Assembly (NCBI RefSeq): GCF_024972735.1
Contig: NZ_CP087723.1
Span: forward strand, 372,001-436,000
Source: Halalkaliarchaeum sp. AArc-CO
GTDB taxonomy: Archaea; Halobacteriota; Halobacteria; Halobacteriales; Haloferacaceae
Reading direction: 5' to 3'
DNA length: 64,000 bases
Numbering within the stretch: the first letter of the stretch is position 1; every line of letters begins with the position of its first letter. A model generated the notes under the pieces. That model saw nothing but the letters and a program-made list of their open reading frames with translations, ran no database searches and was not told the origin of the DNA. Shown here one piece after another: positions 8,713 to 18,135 of this stretch. Position numbers and translations under genes: made by a program.

Positions 8713-8738
8713 TCCGGGTAACGGATGTGGAGACGAAC

Positions 8739-9050
8739 ATGGGGGATCGAGACGACGAAACAGAGGCCGCCGACTCTACGGGCGCCGAAGGCTCCGCGGT
8801 CGACGTCACGGTTTACACGCGGGAGGACTGCCACCTGTGTGAGGAGGCGATCGAGGCGATCCGGCAGGTCGCCGCCGACGTCGGCGTGGGTGTCGCGATC
8901 GACGAAATCGACGTCGAGGAAGACGAGGAGCTCGAAGCGGAGTACGGCGATCGGGTTCCGTACGTTCTCGTGGACGGCCAGCCCGCCTACAAGTACCGGG
9001 TGGACACCTTCGACCTCCGGCGACGGCTTCGCGACCGCACCACGAGCTGA
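8739..9050 (+). CDS. Glutaredoxin-family thiol oxidoreductase
   Basis: The 103-aa protein has a charged N-terminal tail of about 20 residues and then a thioredoxin fold beginning VTVYTREDCHLCEE. The redox pair is C31-H-L-C34. The cis-proline strand is VPYVLVDG, and KYRVDTFDLRRRL closes the domain. C-H-L-C matches the haloarchaeal glutaredoxin/NrdH-like DUF836 type. I chose the ATG at 8739, not the GTG 12 bases upstream, because of its distance from the TATA box. The stop overlaps the next gene's ATG (TGATG), so the two are translated together. Confidence 0.85.
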   Translation: MGDRDDETEAADSTGAEGSAVDVTVYTREDCHLCEEAIEAIRQVAADVGVGVAIDEIDVEEDEELEAEYGDRVPYVLVDGQPAYKYRVDTFDLRRRLRDRTTS

Positions 9051-9625
9051 TGAGGGACGACTCCAACGCAAAACGGGCTTTTGAAGCACTCCCCTCCGAT
9101 GTGACGATCAGGTGTGCCGACCCGACGGAGCTGCTGGGTGTCGTGCGCGTCCTCGACGGGGGCGCGCTCGAGACCGATCTCGAGGCGATTCGACGCCGGT
9201 TACGGGCCGATCCGCCCCTGGTGTTCGTCGCGGTCGCCGAAGCCGAGTCGTCGGAGTCGTCGATGGAACGCGTCGTGGGCGCGCTGGTTTTGAACCCACT
9301 TCAGACGTCGTCTCCCGGGGACTTCGAGATCGAGCAGGTCGCGGTCCGCCGCCGTCGGCGAGGACGGGGGATCGGCCGGGCGCTCGTCGAGGCCGCCTGT
9401 GGGTTCGCGAGGGAACAGGCGCCACCGGACGCGACGGTCACGGTGACAGCGAGCTTCGACCGGACTGTCCGGCCCTTTTATGAGGCGTGTGGGTTCGAGA
9501 TCGTCGACGATCCGGACCTCGAGTCCGGCGACGGTTCCCCCGATACCGCTGAGGAACCTCTCGAGTCCGGCGACGGATCCCGAACGGATCGGCTCCGGGC
9601 CCGTCGGCGGACCGACATCCGGTAA
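9050..9625 (+). CDS. GNAT family N-acetyltransferase
   Basis: The 191-aa protein has the GNAT acetyl-CoA site IEQVAVRRRRRGRGIGRALVEAA (R/Q-x-x-G-x-G/A in the middle). The strand before it is GALVLNPL, and FYEACGFEIVDD is the closing GNAT motif. The substrate is not evident. The ORF overlaps the glutaredoxin stop by one base, an operon arrangement. The last 40 residues repeat the phrase LESGDGS, from a small local duplication, and are probably disordered. Confidence 0.85.
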   Translation: MRDDSNAKRAFEALPSDVTIRCADPTELLGVVRVLDGGALETDLEAIRRRLRADPPLVFVAVAEAESSESSMERVVGALVLNPLQTSSPGDFEIEQVAVRRRRRGRGIGRALVEAACGFAREQAPPDATVTVTASFDRTVRPFYEACGFEIVDDPDLESGDGSPDTAEEPLESGDGSRTDRLRARRRTDIR

Positions 9626-14239: not shown

Positions 14240-16489
14240 CTACGTCTCGACGACCTCCAGCGCCGTCGAGGTGGTGTCGACGATCTCGGCCGGCGGAGAC
14301 AGGTTGCGTCTCCCGCCGAGCGTGACGAAAAACAGCACGAACAGGCCGATGCCGTAGGCGGCCATCAGCGGGATCGTCACCAGGAACATCGTGACGATGT
14401 CGGCGGGCGTGAAGACCGCGGCGAACGTGAGCATCGCGAGCAGCACCTCGCGCCACCGGTTGCGCATCGCCTGGTAGGGGATCCCCGCGTAGTTCAACAG
14501 CACCATCAACACCGGCACGTCCGCGAGGATGCCGATTCCGGCGGTCGTGAAGACGATCAGCCAGAAGAAGTCGTTGATCCGGTAGGAAATGATCATCCCC
14601 GCATCGAGCGCGTCGCCGACGAGATACGAGATCAGCCACGGGGCAAAGAAATAGTAGCCCAGCATGAACCCGCCGATCAGTCCGCCGACGAGCGCGCCGG
14701 TCCACAGGAAGACGACGTTCTGTCGCCCACGGACGAAGCCGAGTTCCCGCAGCGCCGGCCACGCGTAGTACGCGATGACGGGGAAGATCGCGAGCACGCC
14801 CACGAGCACCGAGAACTTCACGATGAAGATGAGCGCCTCCACCGGATGGAGGGTGATGACGTTCACGTTCTCGGCGACGACCTCGCTGGGAAGCCGGCCC
14901 AGGAAGTTGTCGAAGACGTTCCCCAGCCCGCCGAGGTACAGCCACGTGAACGTCGCCGCCATCACTGCGAGGAACGTCCCGACGATGATGAACGACCGCG
15001 ACCGGACGCTGTCGAAGATGAACTTCAGGTCCTTGTAGTAGCCGCCGATGTCGTCCTCGTCGTCTTCGGTCAACTCCTCGAGGAACGTCGATCCCGCCCG
15101 GGTGCCCCGTTCCCCGAGTTCGCCGGCGATGTCTTCGGCCGCCTCGCCGGCGCTTGCGCCGCCAGCCGCCCCGGAAGCTCCTGCCGCTCCGTTCCCGTCG
15201 TCGCTTTCGGCGCGCTGTGCTTCCACCTCGTCGAACCGGTCGAGCAGTGCCTGAGCCTTTTCGGGGTCGTCGGCGTCGAGGGCAGCGCTGGCCAGTTGCA
15301 TCACCTCATCTTCGCTCAGCTCTTCGAAGGCCTCAATCGGCGCCGCCCGGACGCCTCCCGCGTCGAGTTCTCCGAGGTCGATCGCCGTCGGATCGCCGTA
15401 CAGCTCCGGTTCCTCCTCGGGGTCGAGGCCGGCGTACACGAGGTACATCAGTCCCAGGACCGCAAACAGGACACCCGTGAGGAGACCGTACAGCGCGATC
15501 GCGGTCGGCTCGGCGACGCCGAGTCCCTCACCGAGCGGGACGATCCGGTAGTCGCTGCCCATCCACGCGAGTAGATCGTTTGCCGCTTGTCGACCGCCGT
15601 AATCGTAAAAGCCGTATACAGCGGCGACCCCGACAACGAACAGTCCGGCGAGCACGTTCCACTTCCGGCGGATCGTCGTCGGCACGTCGATCGTCTCGCT
15701 TCGCCGGCGGGCGGTGACCGCGATCTTCGCGAGGTACAGGGAGACGCCGTACAGCGCGATCAACGGGACCGCCCACATGATCTGCGTGAACGGATCCGGC
15801 GGTGAGAACATCGCGCCGAAGACGAAGATGAGCACGACTGCGTATTTCCATTTGTCCCGGAACGTCTCGTACTGGACGATGCCGGCGTACGACAGCCCGG
15901 TGACGACCAGCGGCATCTGGGCGGCGAGGCCGAACGACAGCGACAAAAAGACGATGAACTCCGTCCACATCACGATCGAGTAGCTCGGCGCGAAGCCGGC
16001 CTCGAGACCGAAGCTCGCGAGGAACGCGAACATGAACGGGAAGAAAATGCTCTGGCCGTAGAAGACCCCGCCTGCGAAAAGTAGCGCCGCGAGGACGCCG
16101 ATCGTGGCCATCTTCCACCGAGGGATCGGTGCGTCCGGCCACATGTCGCGCTCGCGAAGCGCCTCCCTGGAGAAGTAGATCAGCGGCGGGATGGCGGCGA
16201 TGACGCCGACGATGAGGCCGATCTTCGCCTGCAAGAGAATCACGTCGAACGGCGTCAGAACGATGATCTCCAGCTGGGCCTCCACGTCGGGCGGCATCTG
16301 AGCTCGGGTGACGCCCTTGAGGTAGTCCCAGACCCACAGCCGAAGTGCGTAGAACGTCCCGAGAAAAACGAAGAGAAACACCATGAAGGCCTTCTGCAGG
16401 TCCTTCTGGGCCGAACGGAGCATCGCCCGAACGGCGTCGCTTCCCTCGGCCAGCGTCTGCTGGGTGTCCTCGTCGAGGGCGCTGGACAT
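14240..16489 (-). CDS. tatC2: Twin-arginine translocase TatC, double-domain form (TatCt)
   Basis: The 749-aa protein holds two TatC domains in tandem, the haloarchaeal TatCt form. The first copy spans about residues 35-290 (PFDVILLQAKIGLIVGVIAAIPPLIYF, then FSPPDPFTQIMWAVPLIALYG). The second spans about 500-740 (PVEALIFIVKFSVLVGVLAIFP, then FTPADIVTMFLVTIPLMAAYG). A charged linker rich in Asp, Glu and Ala lies between them. TatC recognises twin-arginine signal peptides of folded exported proteins, the main secretion route in haloarchaea. The start is the ATG at 16489, back to back with tatCo. Confidence 0.95.
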   Translation of the reverse strand: MSSALDEDTQQTLAEGSDAVRAMLRSAQKDLQKAFMVFLFVFLGTFYALRLWVWDYLKGVTRAQMPPDVEAQLEIIVLTPFDVILLQAKIGLIVGVIAAIPPLIYFSREALRERDMWPDAPIPRWKMATIGVLAALLFAGGVFYGQSIFFPFMFAFLASFGLEAGFAPSYSIVMWTEFIVFLSLSFGLAAQMPLVVTGLSYAGIVQYETFRDKWKYAVVLIFVFGAMFSPPDPFTQIMWAVPLIALYGVSLYLAKIAVTARRRSETIDVPTTIRRKWNVLAGLFVVGVAAVYGFYDYGGRQAANDLLAWMGSDYRIVPLGEGLGVAEPTAIALYGLLTGVLFAVLGLMYLVYAGLDPEEEPELYGDPTAIDLGELDAGGVRAAPIEAFEELSEDEVMQLASAALDADDPEKAQALLDRFDEVEAQRAESDDGNGAAGASGAAGGASAGEAAEDIAGELGERGTRAGSTFLEELTEDDEDDIGGYYKDLKFIFDSVRSRSFIIVGTFLAVMAATFTWLYLGGLGNVFDNFLGRLPSEVVAENVNVITLHPVEALIFIVKFSVLVGVLAIFPVIAYYAWPALRELGFVRGRQNVVFLWTGALVGGLIGGFMLGYYFFAPWLISYLVGDALDAGMIISYRINDFFWLIVFTTAGIGILADVPVLMVLLNYAGIPYQAMRNRWREVLLAMLTFAAVFTPADIVTMFLVTIPLMAAYGIGLFVLFFVTLGGRRNLSPPAEIVDTTSTALEVVET

Positions 16490-16573
16490 ACCCACTACTC
16501 GGCCACTAATGCCTATCAACCTTTTCAACCGTGCGCGGCTTCTCGAACGGGCCGTCCGCGGAGCTATCAGAAA

Positions 16574-16583
16574 AGGCCTATAA
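16574..16583 (+). promoter_or_regulatory. TATA box of tatCo
   Basis: The stretch cctataatg lies about 27-33 bases before the tatCo ATG at 16608 in the 118-base divergent gap. The other half of the gap (caaccttttcaacc, read on the minus strand) has AT-rich sequence for tatCt. Confidence 0.5.
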
Positions 16584-16607
16584 TGGCCGGGACTGAACGT
16601 CAGGTGA

Positions 16608-17867
16608 ATGGGCGACCCGGACCGCGACGAGCCGTCGGAACCCGACGCCGAATCCGAACCGGAGAGCGACCGGTCCGAGGACGCGGATGCGGAACGCCGC
16701 AAGGACGACGCCGAACGCGGCGAGCAGGGGACGGACGAAGGAGAGTCGTCCGAACCGACGTCGTACGATCTCGACGACGAGGGGCTGTTCCCCGGACCGG
16801 AGAGCTTCGACTCGAACGAGGAGGACGGGAACGCTGACGACGGAGCCGACGGAGCCGCCGACGATAGCGAAGTCGATGACGATGGCGAAGTCGACGCGGA
16901 AGACGCTGCTGCGATCAACGAAGGGACGAGTCCCCGGCCGAACCGACGGCGTATGCGTCCCAAGCGGGAGGGCAAGGACGACGGTACAGACGACGAAGAC
17001 GATGACGACGATGACGACGAAGACGATGACGACGAAGACGACCAAGACGATGACGATGAGGATGTTGAGGAGGTGGACGACGAGACAGTCTCGAACGGTG
17101 CCGGTGCGGTAGCCACCGAGCGCGACGACGACGAACCGCTCTTTGAAGGGCCGGAGTCCGACGAGGAGATGCCGCTTGCGGACCACATCGAGGAGATGAT
17201 GCGGCGGCTCGGCGTCGTCTTCCTCGTGGCGGGGATCGCGACACTCATCGCCTACCCGTCCGCAGACATCGCCATCAACTACTTCTGGTCGAGTCACATC
17301 CCGGACCCGGGAGTGAACCGGCCGCGGGTGTACGGTCCCCTCGAGTTCATTCTCACGAAGCTCAAGGTCGCCGGACTCGCCGGCCTCGTGTTCGGGCTGC
17401 CGGTGTTCGTCTACGAGACGTATCTGTTCATGCGTCCCGGCCTGTATCCCCGGGAACGGCGGTATTACCTGGCGGCGATTCCCACGAGCCTGGTGCTCGC
17501 GACGATCGGGGGACTGTTCGCACACTTCGTCGTCCTGCCGGCCATCTTCGCGTACTTCACCGCCTACACCGAGGGGACCGCAGTGATCGCGTTCGGGCTG
17601 GCGGAGACGTTCAACCTCATCGTCGTCCTGATCGGGTACATGGCGGTCGTCTTCCAGATCCCGCTTTTGATCATGCTCGCGATCATGATGAACCTCGTCA
17701 CGCGGGAGTGGCTGGAGGACAAGCGGCTCCTGTTCTGGGGTGGCTTCCTCGGCCTCTCGTGGCTCGTGACGCCGGACCCGACCGGGATGGCGCCGATCAT
17801 CGTCACACTCACTATGATCGGACTCTACGAGGGGACGCTCGCGCTGCTCCGGTGGACCGGGAACTGA
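16608..17867 (+). CDS. tatC1: Twin-arginine translocase TatC, single form (TatCo), with long acidic N-terminus
   Basis: The 419-aa protein has one TatC domain, about residues 185-419: EEMPLADHIEEMMRRLGVVF, GPLEFILTKLKVAGLAGLVFGLP and SWLVTPDPTGMAPIIVTL. About 180 residues of almost pure Asp/Glu/Ser precede it, including a run of some 20 near-consecutive Asp/Glu near residues 124-150. TatCo and TatCt act together in haloarchaea. The acidic extension would lie on the cytoplasmic side. It is far longer than in a standard TatC (about 250 aa), and the repeated gac/gat codons suggest it grew by slippage. Confidence 0.93.
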   Translation: MGDPDRDEPSEPDAESEPESDRSEDADAERRKDDAERGEQGTDEGESSEPTSYDLDDEGLFPGPESFDSNEEDGNADDGADGAADDSEVDDDGEVDAEDAAAINEGTSPRPNRRRMRPKREGKDDGTDDEDDDDDDDEDDDDEDDQDDDDEDVEEVDDETVSNGAGAVATERDDDEPLFEGPESDEEMPLADHIEEMMRRLGVVFLVAGIATLIAYPSADIAINYFWSSHIPDPGVNRPRVYGPLEFILTKLKVAGLAGLVFGLPVFVYETYLFMRPGLYPRERRYYLAAIPTSLVLATIGGLFAHFVVLPAIFAYFTAYTEGTAVIAFGLAETFNLIVVLIGYMAVVFQIPLLIMLAIMMNLVTREWLEDKRLLFWGGFLGLSWLVTPDPTGMAPIIVTLTMIGLYEGTLALLRWTGN

Positions 17868-17898: not shown

Positions 17899-18135
17899 CT
17901 ATCTGCGACGATCACCGTCGCGGTTGACGCGGGAGACGCCGCCCTTTATCAGTCGCAGCACGGTCATCCGGTCTGTGTCGACTGGTGCGTCCTCGGGCAC
18001 CGGGGTCCCGTCGACGAGCACTGTCGCCTCCTGCGTGTTGTATCCGACCCCCCGAACGACGTCACCGTAGGTGGCGTCTACATCGAGCTCGAGAGTGCGT
18101 TCACCCTCCCCGACCACTTCGACTGTCACCTGCAT
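17899..18135 (-). CDS. samp2: SAMP2-like ubiquitin-fold modifier with residues beyond the diglycine
   Basis: The 78-aa beta-grasp protein reads MQVTVEVVGEGERTLELD at the start and VLRLIKGG near its end, matching small archaeal modifier protein 2 (SAMP2). SAMP2 is conjugated to lysines and supplies sulfur for tRNA thiolation through its C-terminal Gly-Gly. Here the gene continues 12 codons after the Gly-Gly (VSRVNRDGDRRR) before TAG. The product would therefore need trimming before adenylation by UbaA. The ATG at 18135 gives the family length at the N-terminus. It is convergent with tatCo. Confidence 0.85.
   Translation of the reverse strand: MQVTVEVVGEGERTLELDVDATYGDVVRGVGYNTQEATVLVDGTPVPEDAPVDTDRMTVLRLIKGGVSRVNRDGDRRR

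Follow-up and report, generated by a model that had tools for sequence, protein, structure and literature searches.

The ubiquitin-like modifier SAMP2 of Haloferax volcanii (HVO_0202) ends at Gly-Gly and requires no maturation. The haloarchaeal gene studied here encodes a protein with the same core (residues 1-66), the same beta-grasp fold and the same motif LRLIKGG, in a genome which also carries genes for UbaA and a desampylase, yet its reading frame runs 12 residues further. This raises the question of how a modifier whose Gly-Gly must end the mature protein for activation could work when that Gly-Gly is buried inside the polypeptide. The original prediction left two answers side by side, a precursor which needs a protease step or a protein which has lost conjugation. 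We favour the former: judging from sequence comparisons, the gene encodes a SAMP2 precursor, matured most likely by a JAMM1 cut, a reading to which we assign a probability of roughly 0.8.

The gene lies on the minus strand at positions 17899-18135 of the window, by which we mean the whole stretch of 64,000 nucleotides that was analysed. It consists of 78 codons and a TAG stop (ATG at 18135, TAG at 17899-17901), and the 78-amino acid product is MQVTVEVVGEGERTLELDVDATYGDVVRGVGYNTQEATVLVDGTPVPEDAPVDTDRMTVLRLIKGG followed by VSRVNRDGDRRR, that is, MQVTVEVV...VLRLIKGG and then the tail. The identification as a SAMP2-like modifier was borne out by family models scoring above their cut-offs, both for Pfam SAMP2 PF21965 (E 6e-26, 91.1 bits, cut-off 27) and for the NCBIfam equivalog NF041919 (97.8 bits, cut-off 70), the whole of which was matched at residues 1-66. 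The solved structures of Haloferax SAMP2, 2L32 and 4HRS, also matched (E 3e-19 to 2e-17), and their constructs align with the protein as far as Gly-Gly. In the AlphaFold model, pLDDT is mostly above 90 for residues 1-61, which form the strand-strand-helix-strand-strand order of a beta-grasp, and falls below 50 across most of residues 65-78, pointing to a disordered end. The beta-grasp core, delimited by the NCBIfam model from end to end and by AlphaFold, thus occupies 17938-18135 and closes with the Gly-Gly codons 65-66 (17938-17943), invariant in all 181 SAMP2 proteins compared. The extension VSRVNRDGDRRR, which is predicted to be disordered and to be cut off, follows in frame at 17902-17937 on the same strand, and its length of exactly 12 codons agrees with the original prediction.

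Two circumstances which could have explained the extension away, a frameshift and a second SAMP2 gene with a normal end, had been named beforehand, and neither was found. No one-base shift, in either direction, gives a stop at Gly-Gly, as the nearest stop lies 8 codons on in one shifted frame and the other frame is without a stop for 40 codons. Moreover, the single sequenced congener that was compared (G001) carries SAMP2 at the same locus, with a core 83% identical to that of the window's protein, followed by exactly 12 residues and TAG, so that the stop falls at the same position. An equally long tail at the same place in a congener indicates that the extension is real and inherited, and a sequencing error was rejected as its source on both grounds. 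No second SAMP2 gene was found in the genome of the window, which is 99.91% complete, and its other ThiS-family proteins were rejected as a spare SAMP2 because they are MoaD-like. Two such MoaD-like ubiquitin-fold proteins, encoded outside the window at C2:1730150-1730410 (L198) and C2:2414911-2415168 (L200), also run past Gly-Gly (ending ...PPVSGGEQ and ...VVGGGHTPPGTGFDQ, respectively), and precursor forms may therefore reach beyond SAMP2.

Precursor processing by JAMM proteases is an established principle. In vitro, HvJAMM1 cuts a linear SAMP1-MoaE fusion exactly behind the glycine, and in vivo the cut depends on it (PMC4443979). The enzyme is described as hydrolysing SAMP1-3 linkages of both the linear and the isopeptide kind (PMC4048286), and in Caldiarchaeum subterraneum the ubiquitin precursor CsUb-pre is trimmed by CsRpn11 and SAMP precursors by CsJAMM (PMC6043591). 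The precursor reading leans in part on these JAMM1-type cuts of linear SAMP fusions after glycine. In the window's species, we propose that the beta-grasp core would fold with its C-terminal arm flexible, and that a JAMM1-type metalloprotease (the haloarchaeal desampylase) would cut after Gly66, freeing a 12-residue tail which would itself be disposable. The cut would expose the Gly-Gly carboxylate for adenylation by the E1 UbaA, and adenylated SAMP2 could then enter sampylation and sulfur transfer to tRNA; in Haloferax volcanii, SAMP2 and UbaA are important for thiolation of tRNA-Lys(UUU) (PMC4048286). From the comparisons that follow we infer the cleavage, JAMM1 as its agent and a function of the free SAMP2 like that in Haloferax volcanii.

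The idea that the extension is a feature of a single genome did not survive comparison with orthologues. We read the C-terminal ends of SAMP2 from 181 genomes of the order, comprising most of the window's family and, outside it, genomes picked among those that matched the query better, for which reason the tail percentages are not unbiased. Of these proteins, 79 stop at Gly-Gly, 31 carry 1-5 extra residues, 39 carry 6-30, and in the remaining 32 the frame continues into a complete enzyme, so that a tail or fusion is present in 102 of 181. Gly-Gly is kept in every one of the 181, including all 102 tailed or fused forms; seven proteins missed by the automatic pattern were checked by eye and all end at Gly-Gly. 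Tailed forms include those of Halosegnis rubeus (RWG), Haloferax marinum (RS) and Natronocalculus amylovorans (SQRA), and in one genus, g21, all 45 genomes read have a tail, ATDGGA being a frequent form. Some g21 tails have grown through an in-frame repeat of 15 bases, (ATDGG)n, reaching 6, 11 or 16 residues (for example L221 in G139 and L218 in G152).

The partners in the 32 fusions are either an AhpC/TSA-type redoxin or a GNAT acetyltransferase. Redoxin fusions were found in g14, g16 and g28, as well as in 14 of the 15 species of g44, which belongs to another family, while GNAT fusions were found in all 11 species read in g17 and in two of g21. In most other genomes, unfused redoxin and GNAT genes follow SAMP2, in any of the three frames. 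Since the same enzymes are unfused neighbours in relatives, SAMP2-(redoxin)-GNAT was likely the ancestral gene order, and each fusion would seem to reflect the loss of a stop codon. The partner-domain trees are consistent with some three origins for fusion to redoxin, followed by a single later split, and with GNAT fusions in two clades, and stop-codon loss would therefore have produced fusions in about five events. The sole unfused member of g44, G243, has a 2-residue tail (L138) and a redoxin gene in another frame, which may reflect either a frameshift that secondarily split the fusion or an error of assembly.

In these relatives, the JAMM1 cut proposed above would free SAMP2 from its redoxin or GNAT partner. 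A speculative extension, which we put forward tentatively, is that the same cut also switches the partner enzyme on, coupling the supply of modifier one-to-one to an enzyme of oxidative stress or acetylation. Short tails like that of the window would then be another outcome of the same JAMM1 dependence, and haloarchaea would have arrived independently at the ubiquitin-fusion strategy of eukaryotes, with regulation as an added element. Alternatively, SAMP2 could stay attached in the fused proteins, as a permanent or switchable cis tag on the redoxin or acetyltransferase. A switch in cis is possible in principle, given that uncleaved SAMP1-MoaE is inactive and regains activity upon cleavage by HvJAMM1 (PMC4443979). 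However, a cis tag leaves the short tails, the window's included, unexplained. Furthermore, no second SAMP2 was found in the fused genomes of the window's family or of g44, where the fused gene is the only one, so that retention of sampylation and tRNA thiolation would require the release of at least some SAMP2. We consider permanent attachment or a cis switch unlikely on balance.

If a cut is needed, the question becomes which protease performs it. The window's genome encodes, at C2:516934-517362, a JAMM1 which scores 154.9 bits on the NCBIfam desampylase model (cut-off 130), with its motif HSHP...SxxD (SETD) intact, and an E1 of the UbaA type (ThiF match, E 6e-84); it also encodes a JAMM2-type protein, and its one PF01171 match is an NcsA-type candidate. 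We searched for JAMM1 across the window's family and in 52 genomes outside the family whose SAMP2 tails had been read. JAMM1 was found in 101 of the 102 genomes with a tailed or fused SAMP2, the exception (G077) being a 79%-complete assembly, whereas tail-less genomes had it in 51 of 79 cases and were without it in 28. Counted by genus, JAMM1 was present in 17/17 with tails versus 16/30 without (Fisher p 0.0004), and counted by genome the association had p 6e-11, both values ignoring kinship. The HvJAMM1-type desampylase is apparently absent in g7, g11, g13, g23, g32, g48, g62, g70, g87, g89, g95 and others.

In order to take kinship into account, we used a tree of SAMP2 and GNAT, which is poorly resolved and on which tail and JAMM1 each change about a dozen times. 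A paired test of tail against JAMM1 yielded four supported pairs, too few for significance, with 0.9 in favour on average and none against. As a rough figure, the chance that some 12 gains of a tail, if randomly distributed among genera, would all miss the 14 of 47 genera which lack JAMM1 is 0.70 to the 12th power, or 1-2%. Tailed and fused forms are thus essentially confined to JAMM1-bearing genomes in the sample, which suggests that SAMP2 here is probably a precursor in need of a cut. Many JAMM1-positive lineages are tail-less, so JAMM1 would be kept for its desampylase role in any case, and the association may reflect no more than a tolerance of tails in lineages with JAMM1.

The tail could also be trimmed by a protease other than JAMM1, either JAMM2 or a general carboxypeptidase or endopeptidase, for which unstructured tails would be easy prey, and a JAMM2-type gene is indeed present in the window's genome. 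Nevertheless, JAMM2-type genes occur without tails too, as in G045, where the Pfam model finds the JAMM2 type only and there is neither JAMM1 nor tail. It is JAMM1 that tails and fusions track, and a carboxypeptidase cannot trim a fusion to a folded enzyme; we therefore regard another protease as a rather improbable agent, and a cut by JAMM1 as the preferred reading.

The sequences of the tails bear on what they are for. In g21, the short tails differ at codon positions 1, 2 and 3 at rates of 0.33, 0.37 and 0.24, respectively, while the SAMP2 core of the same genus shows 0.085, 0.084 and 0.22, the usual excess at third positions. A conserved peptide signal was rejected for the short tails because their codon-position differences are unconstrained. 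Judging from these patterns, the short tail appears to be without sign of selection as a peptide, and the Gly-Gly which precedes it appears constrained. Such a drifting tail behind a preserved Gly-Gly would be expected if the tail is removed, and would not be expected if the modifier had lost its function. Ala or Ser immediately follows Gly-Gly in 78 of the 102 tailed proteins, compared with an Ala/Ser share of 25-31% in the codons past the stop of tail-less genes; averaged per genus the value is 51%, and the window's genus, with Val or Asn at this position, is an exception. The original prediction had also described the tail as basic, which holds for the window's protein (net charge +3) and not beyond it. 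The tail of the congener, NGNVGFGDDCRA, has a net charge of -1, and short tails are acidic overall (86 Asp/Glu versus 28 Lys/Arg), so a basic tail was rejected as a conserved feature.

Loss of conjugation, the second answer of the original prediction, would mean that SAMP2 has given up both conjugation and sulfur transfer, that its stop was lost neutrally, and that the protein is kept in another role with the tail attached. The tail is poorly conserved between the two species of the genus, and a tail that stayed in place would block activation by E1. However, LRLIKGG is intact in both congeners, Gly-Gly is found in every tailed or fused relative, and E1, JAMM1 and the NcsA-type candidate are all retained. 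The core is also under constraint: of the changes between the two congeneric genes over its 66 codons, 12 fall at codon positions 1 and 2 and 21 at position 3. We find loss of conjugation very hard to credit, and the kept Gly-Gly, the drifting tails, the retained E1 and desampylase genes and the co-distribution with JAMM1 together argue for a precursor. Least probable of all, the short tails could be tolerated drift of the stop codon with no role in processing, a minor activated fraction (for example from chance proteolysis) being enough, as tails which drift in length and sequence and often number 1-5 residues might suggest, but a genus tailed throughout (45/45), 32 genomes with full enzyme fusions and the absence of tails where JAMM1 is absent all speak against it.

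Eukaryotic ubiquitin precursors carry tail residues or ribosomal-protein fusions, which place the stop past Gly-Gly and make processing obligatory, a task performed mainly by cysteine-type enzymes and not by JAMM proteases. The haloarchaeal genes follow the same displaced-stop logic, with an independent origin. Closer to hand, the Caldiarchaeum precursors are likewise archaeal ubiquitin-like proteins with residues after Gly-Gly, trimmed there by a JAMM protease, but they belong to another phylum, the ubiquitin extension has 9 residues, and haloarchaeal SAMP2 is also fused to whole enzymes. Fusions of MoaD or SAMP1 to MoaE, cut by HvJAMM1 or DRJAMM (PMC4443979, PMC8832034), resemble the enzyme fusions described here in joining a ubiquitin-like domain head-to-tail with an enzyme, from which JAMM frees it after the glycine. 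They differ in that MoaE works with the MoaD branch, whereas here a SAMP2 of the ThiS branch is joined to a redoxin or GNAT, and natural archaeal Ubl-MoaE fusions have been reported as restricted to Crenarchaeota. A GNAT gene beside SAMP2 in Halobacteria was noted in 2010 as the pair arCOG00535-arCOG04721 (PMC2948915); the accessible part of that article describes adjacency only and mentions no haloarchaeal SAMP2 fusion, tail or redoxin neighbour. Our search, which covered open-access papers, returned no report of tailed haloarchaeal SAMP2, of its natural fusion to a redoxin or GNAT, or of a confinement of such forms to genomes with JAMM1, and these precursors, fusions and the JAMM1 link appear to be unreported.

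Haloarchaea serve as a model for ubiquitin-like modification outside eukaryotes. If more than half of the sampled haloarchaeal SAMP2 proteins need a JAMM1 cut, then JAMM1 would make the modifier and not just erase modifications, and it should become necessary for tRNA thiolation and sampylation in tailed or fused species. The natural series of precursors, which extends from 2-residue tails to complete enzymes and includes some five fusion events, could also illuminate the origin of ubiquitin-fusion genes in tractable relatives. The main interest therefore lies beyond the 12 residues of the window, in a haloarchaeal parallel to ubiquitin-fusion genes, one which arose repeatedly and is directly testable in Haloferax.

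The surroundings of the window's gene differ from those in relatives. Where redoxin or GNAT would lie downstream, a TatC-like gene (16608-17867, plus strand, recognised by eye from its sequence) converges on SAMP2, an arrangement shared with the congener, and the SAMP2 operon is broken up in the genus. The tail was rejected as a recognisable redoxin or GNAT remnant because the DNA downstream of SAMP2 showed no similarity to either. The genome's closest match to the SAMP2-operon GNAT of relatives lies 8 kb away, at 9050-9625 on the plus strand, and is a candidate orthologue (54% identity in the best segment, E 4e-13). A glutaredoxin-like gene overlaps it (8727-9625 for the two), so that here, too, a GNAT has a redox protein for a neighbour. 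The TatC-like protein itself has a long, very acidic N-terminal extension with runs of Asp/Glu, its first membrane segment starting after some 190 residues. Antisense to its gene lies an open, Ser-rich frame that is joined with the double TatC-like gene next to it (14240-17248, minus strand).
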